Notes under the pieces: generated by a model
What the model was told of the DNA's origin: nothing
Seen by the model: the letters and a program-made list of their open reading frames with translations, nothing else
Databases searched by the model: none
Position numbers and translations under genes: made by a program
In this document: positions 51,966 to 61,150 of the stretch, piece by piece
How the letters are laid out: each line of letters begins with the position of its first letter
Numbering within the stretch: the stretch's first letter is position 1
NCBI GenBank assembly: GCA_029232285.1
Contig: JAOXFI010000012.1
Location: forward strand, 1 to 64,000
DNA length: 64,000 bases
DNA from: Agmasoma carcini (nom. nud.)
Taxonomy: Eukaryota > Microsporidia > Thelohaniidae
Direction: 5' to 3'

Positions 51966-52940
51966 TTAGCACATCAATTTTAATACTTCTCCTCTTATTT
52001 CATCAACAGAAGGATAAAAATTTTCTTCAAGATTAGCTGCATACGGAACATGCCCATCTTTTGCATTTAACTTCACTATTTTCTTATCCAATTCTCCAAA
52101 CATCATCTCATAAACTTGGCTTGATATTTCAGATGCAACAGAAAAACAAGGCGTGCTAAAATCAACAATCAACAGCTTTCTCGTCTTCCTAACTGAAGAA
52201 ATAATTATTTTCATGTCCAAAGGTCGAATTGAAATCAAATTTATAATCTCAACCCCTTCAATATTTTTACAAGCCTCTACAACCCTTGTAAGCCCATATG
52301 AAAAACCAATCACTGTTGCTTTGTTACCATTTCGTACTATTCTAGCCTTGTCTAGATTATAATCTTCACCACCTTTAAAGCTTATATTTTCATCATATAA
52401 AACATGATTCTCAAGTATAATCACTGGATTATCATCTCTTATCGCTAACTTAGTAAGATTATAATGATCTTCCATTGAAACTGGTGCAACAACCTTCAAT
52501 CCAGGTATTTGTCCATAGAACGAAAAAAATTCCATACAATGCTGTGCTGCACAGCCTGGATCATATCCTGATATTCCACGAAAAACAATTGGTGATGTTA
52601 CTACAGACCCTGACATATAAGAAATCTTCGCACAACTGTTAATTATATGATCAATCGCTTGTAATGAAAAGTTAAAGGTCATAAATTCAACAATTGGTCT
52701 CATCCCCATATATGAAGCCCCTATTCCAAATCCTGTAAATGCATTCTCACTGATTGGTGTATCAATCACTCTTCTTGCCCCATATTTTTTTAACAAACCC
52801 TTTGTCACTTTATATGCACCATCAGATTCACCTACTTCTTCACCTATTATAAAAACAGACTTATCATTTGCTAGTTCTTCATCTAATGCTAGATTGATTG
52901 CTTCTCTGACACTCTTCATGGTAATTTTTTTGTTTTTCAT
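51966..52940 (-). CDS. PDB1: pyruvate dehydrogenase E1 component, beta subunit
   Basis: 324 residues, near full length. With the alpha subunit it forms the thiamine diphosphate-dependent E1 that decarboxylates pyruvate. Seen: IIGEEVGESDGAYKVTKGL (31-49) with the Glu that activates the cofactor (34-35); RVIDTPISENAFTGFGIGAS; RPIVEFMTFNFSLQAIDHII; AAQHCMEFFSFYG with His134 at the usual histidine; PVIILEN; and a transketolase C-terminal domain with IRPLDMKII. There is no long N-terminal targeting sequence. In microsporidia E1 persists although E2, E3 and a respiratory mitochondrion are lost, so its electron acceptor and site are open questions. Start: ATG at 52940; the second ATG, at codon 8, is possible. 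Confidence 0.95.
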   Translation of the reverse strand: MKNKKITMKSVREAINLALDEELANDKSVFIIGEEVGESDGAYKVTKGLLKKYGARRVIDTPISENAFTGFGIGASYMGMRPIVEFMTFNFSLQAIDHIINSCAKISYMSGSVVTSPIVFRGISGYDPGCAAQHCMEFFSFYGQIPGLKVVAPVSMEDHYNLTKLAIRDDNPVIILENHVLYDENISFKGGEDYNLDKARIVRNGNKATVIGFSYGLTRVVEACKNIEGVEIINLISIRPLDMKIIISSVRKTRKLLIVDFSTPCFSVASEISSQVYEMMFGELDKKIVKLNAKDGHVPYAANLEENFYPSVDEIRGEVLKLMC

Positions 52941-55185: not shown

Positions 55186-55674
55186 TTATAAATTTTTAAA
55201 TAAATCAATAATAAAATTACTAATTTCAAAACCAAGAAAGCTAAATATCACTTTTACAATACCAAATAATATTATTGAGTTTATAACCTGTTTAAGTGAG
55301 TGATGTTGATGGTATACACGTGAGAATGATCCTAGTATAATTAGTAGTGCAGATACAAAGCAAGGATTCTCTAGGAAATATAAAGTATAGAACATTGTAT
55401 GAGTGCTTGGGAAGCCAAAGTTAACTTTTAGGAAGCTTAAAGATTGAATTGTACCCCACGCATTTCTACTAAGACTTGGTCTTTGTGATCTAAACATGAT
55501 TTTTAAGAATGAAGAAAAGCAATAATTTAGTGCTATTTTCAATACAATATTCAAATGTGTGTTACTAGTGGTCATCATAGTTAGATGATACGTCATTAAT
55601 GCTAGTGGTAGACCACTGAATGTTCTATTATAAAGGAGATGTGTTTTTTCTATCAATCTAGCCATGCAAACCAT
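55186..55674 (-). CDS. PAP2-type lipid phosphatase, sphingoid-phosphate-phosphatase-like
   Basis: 162 residues with about four to five hydrophobic segments. PAP2 membrane phosphatases remove phosphate from lipid phosphates. Seen: motif C1 as K58-IMFRSQ-RP (58-66), C2 as FGFPSTHTM (86-94), and C3 as SRVYHQHHSLKQ (118-129) with the nucleophilic His125. PSTH in C2 is the version found in long-chain-base phosphate phosphatases (LCB3/SGPP). C3 normally ends in Asp, here Gln129. The protein is short, lacking most of the C-terminal helices of yeast LCB3. The start at 55674 is fixed by GCAACCCCT before the ATG. It may recycle sphingolipid or dolichol-phosphate intermediates. Confidence 0.72.
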   Translation of the reverse strand: MVCMARLIEKTHLLYNRTFSGLPLALMTYHLTMMTTSNTHLNIVLKIALNYCFSSFLKIMFRSQRPSLSRNAWGTIQSLSFLKVNFGFPSTHTMFYTLYFLENPCFVSALLIILGSFSRVYHQHHSLKQVINSIILFGIVKVIFSFLGFEISNFIIDLFKNL

Positions 55675-55918: not shown

Positions 55919-56228
55919 GACTAGCCTTGACATTGCTAGCCTTGACATTGCTAGCCTTGATATGGCTAATCTGGCCTTATTCTGATCCTATCTGACCTTA
56001 TCTGAGTTATTCTTAACTTAATCTGTTTTTATCTGCCCTTATCTGTTTTTATCTGCCCTTATCTTCCCTATTCTTACCTATTCTGTCCTTATTTGACCTA
56101 ATCTACCCCATTCTGCCCTCATCTGTCCTTTTTTACCTCATCTGACCTCTCTGCCCTCATCTGACCTCATCTGCGTTATTCTTAACTTAATCTGTCCTAT
56201 TCTTACCTATTCTGTCCTAATCTAACCT
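55919..56228. repeat. pyrimidine-biased degenerate minisatellite
   Basis: About 310 bases built of 10-11 base units such as CTTATCTGAC, CTCATCTGCC and CTATTCTTAC, opened by three 15-base units TAGCCTTGACATTGC. The plus strand is almost free of G except in TG. It sits between the divergent lipid phosphatase and SEC11-like genes, unlike any other intergenic sequence in the window. Confidence 0.9.
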
Positions 56229-56485: not shown

Positions 56486-56500
56486 CAAAAATTTTCAACC
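56486..56500 (+). promoter_or_regulatory. AAATTTTCAACC start signal
   Basis: AAAAATTTTCAACC stands directly before the ATG at 56501. It indicates that the SEC11 paralogue starts here and is expressed like other genes, not from the TTG further upstream in the open frame. Confidence 0.6.
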
Positions 56501-56986
56501 ATGAAATTTATAAAAATAAATTTAAGGGAATTTCTTAGTAAATTTAATAATTTATACTTTTATATAATTCTACATTTAGCAGTTAGAAATTTTATTGGTC
56601 TTTTATTGAACACTGCCGTACCAAATATTGTAATTATAGGTGAAAATAAGATGTCAGGATTTGATAGGGGTGACATAATCTATTTAACTGGTGAAAGTGA
56701 TTATAAAGTAGGTGATATTGTTTTATATAAAAGTAATTTTATATTACCAAATATTAGTCGAATCTGCTTTGAAAATCTTGGTAATTATAAAACAAAGTGT
56801 GATTTAAATAATATTGATGATGAAGCCCTTAATCAATATTCTAAGTGTTTAACTAACAATGAAATCTACGGTAAAGCTTATTTCATACTTCCGATTGTTG
56901 GTTACATAAATGTTTACCTCTTTGAGTATCCTTTCTTAATAACAATTGGTTATTTTATTTTAATTAATAAATTTATGAATTATTAA
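56501..56986 (+). CDS. catalytically dead SEC11 (signal peptidase) paralogue
   Basis: 161 residues, homologous over its whole length to the SEC11 gene at 58480. An N-terminal helix ends in RNFIGLLLN (SEC11: WKTIGLLLN), and the shared core GFDRGDIIYL (SEC11: GFKRGDILFL) follows. After that come a VGD block, KxDxNNxDD (SEC11: KGDNNIADD), and a final YFILPIVGYIN (SEC11: VFAYIPYFGLP). The catalytic Ser59 of SEC11 corresponds to Asn49 here, in GENKMSG instead of SASMEPG, and the catalytic His96 to Ser86 (PNISRI instead of PIVHRV). The Asp cluster is kept. A uniform open frame and a perfect start signal argue against a pseudogene. It may serve as a structural subunit of signal peptidase or as a substrate-binding decoy. 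Codon use is like its neighbours. Confidence 0.8.
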   Translation: MKFIKINLREFLSKFNNLYFYIILHLAVRNFIGLLLNTAVPNIVIIGENKMSGFDRGDIIYLTGESDYKVGDIVLYKSNFILPNISRICFENLGNYKTKCDLNNIDDEALNQYSKCLTNNEIYGKAYFILPIVGYINVYLFEYPFLITIGYFILINKFMNY

Positions 56987-57208
56987 TTTTTATTATTAAG
57001 TTGTAATAATTAGATAAGGTTTATCTATATAATTACAAACCTTTTCAATATATGTGTAAATCTTTCATATTAACATGCAACAGATTTTAAATTTAATATT
57101 TTTTTATATATATTTGTATGTTGATATGAAAAGTTTGAAATTAGATGGATAAACCCTATAATAAAATATAAACACTTAAATATAAAAAACAAGGTCTCAT
57201 ATATTTAT
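56987..57208. other. short convergent gap
   Basis: A/T-rich; nothing recognised. Confidence 0.35.
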
Positions 57209-57667
57209 TTATACTTCCTTATAACTCTTAACCACATACAATAAGTCTTCAGCAACATCAACCTTACTCTTATTCTCCTCCTTATAAAATCCTTTGTTAT
57301 TAAGAACATCAGACATATAATTCTTCATATTATTCACAATATCATTAAGAATCACCTTAAAAACAGGTGATTGAATCTCAATTATCTTATCAATCTCCAT
57401 ACCAGTGTATGCATCAATTACTTGATCAGCTATTAATATGTATTTGTTAGATAGATCCTCTCTTTTTATTGATTCTTGTAACATTCTAAGATCAACAATT
57501 TTATCCTTTTTTATGTGTACAAGCAACATATAAGCCTTATATAGTAAACTATCATCAGTTTCTATTCCAGTTGACCTAAAAATATAGTACGATAGTTCAA
57601 ATTCATCGTATTTATTAGACTTCATGGCCTTCTTAAGCTGTGCTTCTATGTTTGCTACACTATTCAT
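57209..57667 (-). CDS. uncharacterised small helical protein
   Basis: 152 residues, family not recognised. Predominantly helical, charged and soluble. The first helix IEAQLKKAMKSNKYDEFELSYYIF resembles the start of TPR-like or proteasome/COP9-lid helical proteins, but no signature is visible. A longer open frame reaches 57760; the ATG at 57667 is preceded by AAAATTTTTTACC, which is the start signal of the neighbouring genes. It is divergent from eS17, with about 265 bases between. Confidence 0.65.
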   Translation of the reverse strand: MNSVANIEAQLKKAMKSNKYDEFELSYYIFRSTGIETDDSLLYKAYMLLVHIKKDKIVDLRMLQESIKREDLSNKYILIADQVIDAYTGMEIDKIIEIQSPVFKVILNDIVNNMKNYMSDVLNNKGFYKEENKSKVDVAEDLLYVVKSYKEV

Positions 57668-57682
57668 GGTAAAAAATTTTAT
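57668..57682 (-). promoter_or_regulatory. AAATTTTTTACC start signal
   Basis: On the minus strand AAAATTTTTTACC directly precedes the ATG at 57667. Confidence 0.55.
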
Positions 57683-57918
57683 AACCAAACAAATTTTATT
57701 TTTTATTTCTATTTTTAGTTTAAAAAAGGAAATATTGGTAAATAATTTATAAATATTCAAATATTGATAAAATTGTAATAAATGAACATTGTTATTATGA
57801 TTAGACGCATGTTTATCATTGTCTAGTTATTATAATCATATAATAGCTCATATATTGACATAATCATCTCTTTTTACATCAATTTTTAAATTATATTTTC
57901 AAATCTAAAAAAATTATA

Positions 57919-57932
57919 AAAAATTTTACCCA
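57919..57932 (+). promoter_or_regulatory. AAATTTTACCCA start signal of eS17
   Basis: AAAAATTTTACCCA stands directly before the ATG of the ribosomal protein gene. It is the clearest example in the window of the AAATTT plus CCC arrangement, and is found at a highly expressed gene. Confidence 0.7.
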
Positions 57933-58298
57933 ATGGGTAAAGTACGTGGATTAGCTATAAAAAATGCTGCAAAGAAAGTATTAGAGCTTTATTACACCAG
58001 AGCATCATCTGACTTCCAGAGAAACCTTGACTTAGTTAGAGACGTATGTCAAGTTGAATCTAAGAAGCTTAGAAATAGAGTAGCTGGTTGTCTTACTCGT
58101 TTTTTTAACAGAGTACAACTTAAACCAGTCAAGGGTGTTTATATTAAGGCTCACGAGGAGGAGAAGGAGAGAAATGAAGCTTTTATTCCAAAGGTTGGTG
58201 TCTTAGATGAAGAAAAGGTTGAGATTGATCCAGTCACTTCTGATATGTTAAAGGCTTATGGAATTACAGGTGATTTTGTTACAATTGATACAGAATAA
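57933..58298 (+). CDS. RPS17: small ribosomal subunit protein eS17
   Basis: 121 residues, about the usual length. Structural protein of the 40S head. Seen: MGKVRGLAIKNAAKKVLELYY (compare the family start MGRVRTKTVKKAA), LDLVRDVCQVESKKLRNRVAGCLTRF, which is the RNA-binding helix block, and the C-terminal DPVTSDMLKAYGI. Eukaryote-specific family with archaeal homologues. No intron is apparent. Higher G+C at third positions than its neighbours, as expected for strong expression. It lies between the SEC11 paralogue and active SEC11. Confidence 0.95.
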   Translation: MGKVRGLAIKNAAKKVLELYYTRASSDFQRNLDLVRDVCQVESKKLRNRVAGCLTRFFNRVQLKPVKGVYIKAHEEEKERNEAFIPKVGVLDEEKVEIDPVTSDMLKAYGITGDFVTIDTE

Positions 58299-58350
58299 AG
58301 TTTTAGTTATTATTTCATTATAAGTTAGAAGTCATGTTAGTATAATATAT

Positions 58351-58430
58351 GTTAGTTAGTCAAGTTAGTTATACATGTTAGTTAGTCAAGTTAGTTATAC
58401 ATGTTAGTTAGTCAAGTTAGTTAGTCACTA
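58351..58430. repeat. 26-bp tandem repeat, three units
   Basis: GTTAGTTAGTCAAGTTAGTT starts at 58351, 58377 and 58403. It lies between eS17 and SEC11 in the short gap of 180 bases. Confidence 0.92.
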
Positions 58431-58468
58431 GATTTAGTCTTATGTTAATATATTTAATATAATTCTTA

Positions 58469-58479
58469 AAAATTTGACC
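58469..58479 (+). promoter_or_regulatory. AAATTTGACC start signal
   Basis: AAAAATTTGACC stands directly before the ATG at 58480. The open frame begins six bases earlier only by virtue of a TTG. Confidence 0.6.
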
Positions 58480-59001
58480 ATGGATTTTTTTATTTCCAAG
58501 AAAGAATTACAAACTTTGAAAAGTTTTAACATTCGTAAGTTTTTAGGTCAGTTAATAACAGCTTTCTTCAGTGTTGTGTATTCATATTCTGTATGGAAGA
58601 CCATTGGTCTTTTATTAAACAATGACAGTCCAGTTGTTGTTGTTCTTAGTGCTAGTATGGAGCCAGGCTTTAAAAGAGGTGATATTTTATTTTTAAAGCC
58701 CCAATATTATTACACAGGAAGTATGTGCGTATTTCAAACACATGAACCAAGCATACCCATTGTTCATAGAGTTATCAAAAAGGATGATGAAAGGCTGTTA
58801 ACAAAAGGTGATAACAATATAGCAGATGATACGTCTTTATATACACATGGTAAGGGTTATTTAACACCTAAAGAAACAAGATCAGGTGTGTTTGCTTATA
58901 TACCTTACTTTGGACTTCCAACACTATGGATTAACTCAATTCCTGGTCTTAAAATGGTGTTAATGTTTGGTGCAGCAATTATGACTTTATTTGACAATTA
59001 A
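58480..59001 (+). CDS. SEC11: signal peptidase catalytic subunit
   Basis: 173 residues. The ER signal peptidase cleaves signal peptides of secreted and membrane proteins as they enter the lumen. Seen: an N-terminal membrane helix (about 22-46); the active-site motif VLSASMEPGFKRGDILFL (55-72) with Ser59; VHRV with His96; KGDNNIADD (109-117) with the conserved Asp cluster; and a C-terminal hydrophobic segment (about 153-171). Ser-His-Asp is the type I signal peptidase arrangement in eukaryotes. Length is as in yeast SEC11. An inactive paralogue lies 1.5 kb upstream in the same orientation. Confidence 0.95.
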   Translation: MDFFISKKELQTLKSFNIRKFLGQLITAFFSVVYSYSVWKTIGLLLNNDSPVVVVLSASMEPGFKRGDILFLKPQYYYTGSMCVFQTHEPSIPIVHRVIKKDDERLLTKGDNNIADDTSLYTHGKGYLTPKETRSGVFAYIPYFGLPTLWINSIPGLKMVLMFGAAIMTLFDN

Positions 59002-60439: not shown

Positions 60440-61150
60440 CAAATTATTTCTGCCAAGAAGATATCTATTTTAGTAGATTGCTACCCTTTCCTCTCTCTCA
60501 TTCGTGTCTTGACTTTGGCCCAATATTATTCAATGTCTTTGAGTATGAACTAAAGTCTCAGATTAATAAAATTAAAACTATGATTGACTGTTCCGTGGAC
60601 TAAACCAAGGTTAAGATATATCCTTGATTAGATTTACATTCATCAGAATAGATTATTGAGCATCAGCGACATACTCTGTATATAATTGGTAAAAGAGTAG
60701 ATGCGCTTCTGTCATGCACATACTCCATATATACATTTAAAGGTCTTGATGAAATATCAGCAATACCAAAAACCCAAATATCAGTATTTTGGTATCTTCT
60801 TTTGTTCGCCTTGCGTCTGTGGTTGAATTTTGTTTCATCAACCTGCCATATAATGTTTTGACCATCTAATTCTAAAGGGTTAAATTCAAAATATATTTTT
60901 GAAATTGTATCTTTTGATGAATTCATGATTTTTACAGCTTTAAATATTGTTATATCATTTAGTCATAAATTCATGTTTTTCGAAGCGTTACTCAAAGTAA
61001 GGTTGAGACCACAGAAGAAACTAGCTTTTTGAACTGAAAAATACTTTTTTGTGAGAAGGTCATAAACTATTCATTCGTCTAAATGCTTTCTTGTAATGTT
61101 TCTTGTGTATTTAACAATTGAAAAACACTCATAACATCCGTGATGTCTTT
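60440..61150 (-). pseudogene. Merlin-type transposase relic (copy 6, best preserved)
   Basis: The open minus frame 60926-60663 holds the first catalytic block and what follows: IIWQVDETKFNHRRKANKRRY, DIWVFGIADISSRPLNVYMEYV, and DRSASTLLPIIYRV. After a stop the same strand gives CSIIYSDE (second catalytic Asp), and further on a decayed region ending in KSRHE.ERKG, which corresponds to IKARIKERKG of copy 1. Upstream, FFCGLNLTLSNASKN and DTISKIYFEF fit the part before DDE. The 87-codon frame is part of the dead element, not a gene. Confidence 0.8.

Follow-up and report, generated by a model that had tools for sequence, protein, structure and literature searches.

A protease-dead SEC11 homologue encoded near SEC11 in the microsporidian Agmasoma carcini

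The microsporidian Agmasoma carcini (nom. nud.) encodes two relatives of SEC11, the catalytic subunit of the endoplasmic reticulum (ER) signal peptidase complex (SPC), and one of them is almost certainly dead as a protease. Both genes lie on the forward strand of contig JAOXFI010000012.1 (assembly GCA_029232285.1), in the stretch of 64,000 nucleotides (positions 1 to 64,000) analysed here as the window, which has a guanine-cytosine content of 26% and is part of a 4.26-Mb genome in 69 contigs. The canonical SEC11 (58480..59001, +; 173 residues) carries the domain PF00717 and matches human SEC11C at E 1.4e-28. The second gene (56501..56986, +; 161 residues), termed pseudo-SEC11 here, is SEC11-related by sequence and predicted fold. 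Both frames run from an ATG start to a TAA stop, in agreement with the original prediction of two SEC11 homologues in the same orientation 1.5 kb apart. Searches of the genome with either protein (at E ≤ 0.001 and then E ≤ 1) found only these two SEC11-like places and no third. On balance, we favor the joint claim that pseudo-SEC11 is maintained, non-catalytic and not a peptide trap.

The loss of activity is evident at the catalytic residues themselves. Residue roles were taken from human SEC11A as given in PMC13385932, and the alignment comprised 27 SEC11s, namely the window's own and 26 chosen from the best 120 of 1062 SEC11 matches. The canonical SEC11 retains Ser59, His96, Asp111 and Asp117. 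The nucleophile Ser59 and the base His96, each invariant in 27/27 SEC11s, are replaced in pseudo-SEC11 by Asn49 (codon at 56645..56647, +) and Ser86 (codon at 56756..56758, +), respectively. The nucleophile motif S-A-S-M-E-P reads G-E-N-K-M-S. By comparison, SM.P occurs in 119 and VHR in all of the 120 listed homologues (the best 120 of 1062), with a 114-residue fragment as the single exception for SM.P. The only histidine of pseudo-SEC11, H25, is located in the transmembrane helix TM1, which makes a SEC11-type Ser-His-Asp triad impossible. The Asp of the triad is kept, as are GF.RGDI and the Asp cluster (D101, D106 and D107 in the TKGDNN..DD region). The substitutions, the retained motifs and the inactivity of this SEC11-derived pseudoenzyme had all been proposed from the sequence and were borne out by the alignment.

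Changes extend into the substrate pocket. The S1 methionine found in 27/27 SEC11s is Lys50 in pseudo-SEC11, the gatekeeper Trp39 (Trp in 26/27) is Arg29, and the gatekeeper threonine (T148 in the canonical SEC11) is Asn137. The four valines of the S3/S1 pocket are replaced by Ile43, Ile45, Leu75 and Ile85, and Pro83 and Phe54 are retained. Set against the pattern of the bacterial pseudo-signal-peptidase SipA, the cleft has lost the catalytic pair and keeps hydrophobic but enlarged S3 residues, with both the S1 methionine and the tryptophan gate replaced.

Descent from the SEC11 family is supported by similarity over most of the protein length. Pseudo-SEC11 aligns with the canonical SEC11 at 60.1 bits (BLASTP, E 1e-16; 141 positions, 28% identical, a single gap), and none of 1000 codon-order shuffles matched the alignment score of the pair. 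A Pfam scan of pseudo-SEC11 returned no family at E ≤ 1. The best matches in the PDB are human SEC11C and SEC11A, both by sequence and by fold, followed in the fold comparison by SipA (PDB 4n31). The predicted model shows the SEC11 fold with TM1 (helix 8-36), a lumenal beta core and a C-terminal membrane helix, although the model was built on an alignment with SEC11s and the fold match is hence not independent of the SEC11 assumption. A strand at 122-130 followed by helices at 134-142 and 144-160 (C-terminal helices 134-160) in this model agrees with the expectation that the C-terminal strand and helix were retained. In the SEC11 control model, the nucleophile strand leads into a helical turn at 58-60, and confidence is high across the Asp region; the turn is absent from the predicted pseudo-SEC11 structure. 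The substitutions and both models together indicate that the changes concentrate around the active site, within a framework that is predicted to be preserved.

The accessory subunits of the complex are encoded elsewhere in the genome, where the original prediction had suggested looking for them. A genome profile search (E ≤ 10) recovered a single match each, above the Pfam cut-off, for SPC1 (SPC12, PF06645; C43:47786-47995, E 4.5e-15, open reading frame (ORF) of 83 residues), SPC2 (SPC25, PF06703; C18:60798-61202, E 4.0e-8, ORF of 165 residues) and SPC3 (SPC22, PF04573; C10:71887-72312, E 1.1e-14, ORF of 151 residues). Among 14 control genomes, the SPC12 search gave below-cut-off matches in four and above-cut-off matches in none, and the SPC22 and SPC25 searches gave matches in none. 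With SPC1, SPC2 and SPC3 each found once in addition to SEC11, the data do not support the suggested reduced signal peptidase complex. The complete set instead implies that pseudo-SEC11 is an addition rather than a stand-in for a lost subunit. As a single copy of each accessory subunit was found, a second complex would need to share SPC1, SPC2 and SPC3. A tyrosinase-domain protein (PF00264, E 1.2e-29; L005:1869-2735) is encoded directly downstream of SPC1.

Maintenance of pseudo-SEC11 is likely, though not proven. The gene holds 160 stop-free codons, which has a chance of 1.7e-6 at the local intergenic composition, as given by three nearby stretches of our choosing. The other five frames across the gene contain 11-33 stops. 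The start codon is directly preceded by CC (tcaaccATG; 56488..56500, +). CC within five nucleotides 5' of ATG is found in 16 of the 28 ATG-initiated ORFs of at least 100 residues in the window, which need not all be genes, compared to 125 of 2226 other ATGs. The proposal of a start signal common to other genes is thus upheld. Positions shared by 90% or more of the 27 SEC11s were preferentially kept (19/41 vs. 24/116 other positions, p 0.002), with the caveat that the alignment itself favors conserved columns. The claim that the gene looks maintained therefore stands on the open frame, the start signal and the retention of family-conserved positions, and is weakened by the codon-position signal. 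Overall, pseudo-SEC11 probably has some maintained function, and a recent loss of constraint is possible.

Several results weigh against such a function. The codon-position test gave z-scores of 4.5, 7.1 and 1.5 without a realignment control, which dropped to a non-significant 1.1, 1.7 and 0.5 with realigned codon-order shuffles; the scores were reached by 150, 49 and 289 of 1000 such shuffles, respectively. The pseudo-SEC11 model is of lower quality than that of SEC11 (predicted local distance difference test (pLDDT) 75.2 vs. 88.3; predicted template modeling score (pTM) 0.60 vs. 0.73), and the predicted Asp loop at 101-112 has a pLDDT below 50. Approximately the first 10 residues of SEC11 are missing, which corresponds to most of a short N-terminal helix (7-14 in the SEC11 model). 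Searches for relatives yielded 149 candidates with the whole protein, none at E ≤ 1, and four candidates with the core at 28-131, none at E ≤ 10. Since no pseudo-SEC11 orthologue was found, long-term conservation is not seen. The absence is weak evidence, because the protein search relies on shared five-residue words and would overlook distant orthologues that diverge as fast as pseudo-SEC11 does. Further pseudo-SEC11s could also rank below the best 120 of 1062 listed SEC11 homologues.

The phylogenetic analysis of pseudo-SEC11 points in the same direction. The original prediction had proposed a search for SEC11 paralogues and a tree; the tree was made, the search gave no relative of pseudo-SEC11 and the placement failed. 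The IQ-TREE analysis contained 64 rows, namely both SEC11-like proteins plus 62 homologues (50 treated as microsporidian, 12 others) drawn from the 120 listed. Three fragments (P0047, P0048, P0052) and a plant row (P0050) were omitted, and the other 54 listed rows were unused. The best named matches of the canonical SEC11 among the best 120 of 1062 are microsporidian, and the protein falls into a 35-row clade (100/99) with rows of Pancytospora, Enteropsectra, Vittaforma and Enterospora. Pseudo-SEC11 groups with the 12 non-microsporidian rows (97/98), which comes with a warning of long-branch attraction. The branch of 7.85 changes per column, the odd residue composition and the lack of a stable position in the tree fit weak constraint. 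Groupings of pseudo-SEC11 with the SEC11 of the same genome (p-AU 0.204) or with the full set of microsporidian rows (p-AU 0.278) were not rejected, and we draw no origin from the tree.

We suggest that pseudo-SEC11 is an old or very fast-evolving SEC11 copy that would have lost proteolysis and been retained as an ER membrane protein without catalytic activity. The SEC11 framework, including TM1, the beta core, RGDI, the Asp loop residues and the C-terminal helix, might be kept through docking on membrane or lumenal partners. The simplest such partner would be SPC3 or SPC2. Pseudo-SEC11 might then modulate or compete with the active complex, rather than supply a missing subunit. Such action on or in the SPC, for which partner binding is inferred, is the tentative part of the proposed function, and we hold it as a possibility short of an even chance. 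A stronger version, in which pseudo-SEC11 replaces SEC11 in a second, non-cleaving complex built on the single SPC1, SPC2 and SPC3, is distinctly unlikely. Were it true, chosen membrane or spore proteins could be held or oriented without being cut, and the complex would be a eukaryotic SipA counterpart that evolved independently.

The most serious alternative to a maintained, non-catalytic protein is a decaying duplicate, which lost activity and drifts under relaxed constraint, with a frame still open by luck or because the decay is recent. The branch length, the missing homologues and the weak codon-position signal would all fit decay, as would the change of 22 of the 41 family-conserved positions (at the same 90% threshold), a count that includes active-site and conservative changes. 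The Val to Ile replacements could likewise reflect drift toward adenine and thymine. However, the gene has acquired no stop or frameshift in spite of its very high divergence, the start signal is present, and RGDI, T-K-x-D, the second Asp of DD, P131 and G134 are retained. We consider decay unlikely on this evidence, though with a substantial residual chance. Pseudo-SEC11 could also act as a peptide-binding chaperone or substrate trap, which would bind particular signal peptides or spore proteins and leave them uncut. With both gatekeepers exchanged (Trp to Arg29, Thr to Asn137), the S1 Met turned into Lys50 and all four pocket valines turned into Ile or Leu, the cleft is less likely to accommodate a canonical Ala-X-Ala c-region. 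Judged from these residues, canonical signal-peptide binding appears less likely than partner binding, which the altered gate and S1 pocket would favor. For SipA itself, the authors' own assays revealed no peptide binding (PMC4049620), and we give the trap only a slim chance.

Two further explanations would make pseudo-SEC11 an active enzyme. Catalytic residues might have relocated, for example to Ser52 together with a lysine, and both Ser52 and Lys50 do lie within the former nucleophile loop. The base position is nevertheless occupied by Ser86 and the sole histidine is H25 in TM1, while the model lacks the helical turn and shows the Asp loop only at low confidence, which leaves a protease of this kind very improbable. 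That an ordinary second SEC11 was garbled by misassembly or by a sequencing error is barely credible. Pseudo-SEC11 differs from SEC11 along its entire length (28% identity, a single gap across 141 positions), and no single error could have put Asn, Lys, Ser and Arg at different conserved sites with the frame still open.

The two SEC11-like genes share a strand and are not adjacent. A minus-strand ORF of 152 residues (57209..57667, -), with a single Pfam match below the cut-off, and the gene for ribosomal protein S17e (57933..58298, +) lie in between. The stretch 58330-58439 between S17e and SEC11 contains a 26-base tandem repeat of approximately 3.5 copies with 94% matches (58330-58423). Upstream of the pseudo-SEC11 gene, a degenerate tandem array of ATCTGACCTT-like units with 10-, 15-, 19- and 40-base periods spans 55921-56228, preceded by a PAP2-type phosphatase gene on the opposite strand (55186-55674, -; PF01569, E 9.7e-09). 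Further away, we take the ORF at 51966-52940 (-) by eye to encode a putative pyruvate dehydrogenase E1 beta subunit. An 87-residue ORF at 60663-60926 (-) looks by eye like part of a DDE-type transposase; a Pfam scan gave no match at E ≤ 0.01.

Microsporidia are noted for gene loss. A non-catalytic duplicate kept beside a complete SPC set would thus be informative, as a kept pseudo-SEC11 would separate scaffold roles of SEC11 from its role as a protease. Inactive relatives of signal peptidases are already known from bacteria, and the present case adds a clear pseudo-SEC11 in one eukaryotic genome. Full-text literature searches on inactive SEC11 paralogues and on microsporidian SEC11, signal peptidase or pseudoenzymes, which covered mainly non-subscription literature, turned up no report of an inactive SEC11 paralogue among the papers listed. 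Compared to SEC11 and human SEC11A and SEC11C, the catalytic subunits of the ER complex, pseudo-SEC11 is homologous over most of its length and shares the predicted fold, RGDI and the Asp loop residues, but lacks the catalytic Ser and His, the S1 Met, the Trp gate and the short N-terminal helix. According to PMC13385932, the complexes of human SEC11A and of SEC11C are largely identical, and a SEC11A S56A mutant was purified while holding a model signal peptide whose P1' residue is proline. SipA of Streptococcus pyogenes, encoded in pilus loci, has a signal peptidase fold in which Asp and Gly take the places of nucleophile and base, and PMC4049620 describes it as essential for pilus polymerization despite the missing dyad. 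Binding of selected substrates without cleavage has been proposed for SipA. Unlike pseudo-SEC11, SipA is of the bacterial signal peptidase I (SPase I) type and keeps its peptide cleft. By analogy, the S56A mutant and SipA suggest that binding can be the mode of action of a signal peptidase that no longer cleaves. In Staphylococcus aureus, SpsA is an inactive homologue with two catalytic residues missing beside the active SpsB, as stated in PMC12445088; SpsA belongs to the bacterial Ser/Lys family and is likened to pseudo-SEC11 by description only. Among fungi, Dis3/RNase II pseudonucleases of ascomycete yeasts are reportedly enzyme relatives that were kept after catalysis was lost (PMC8097288), though from an unrelated enzyme class. 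Judged by analogy, pseudo-SEC11 finds its closest functional parallels in SipA and SpsA, two pseudo-signal-peptidases of bacteria.
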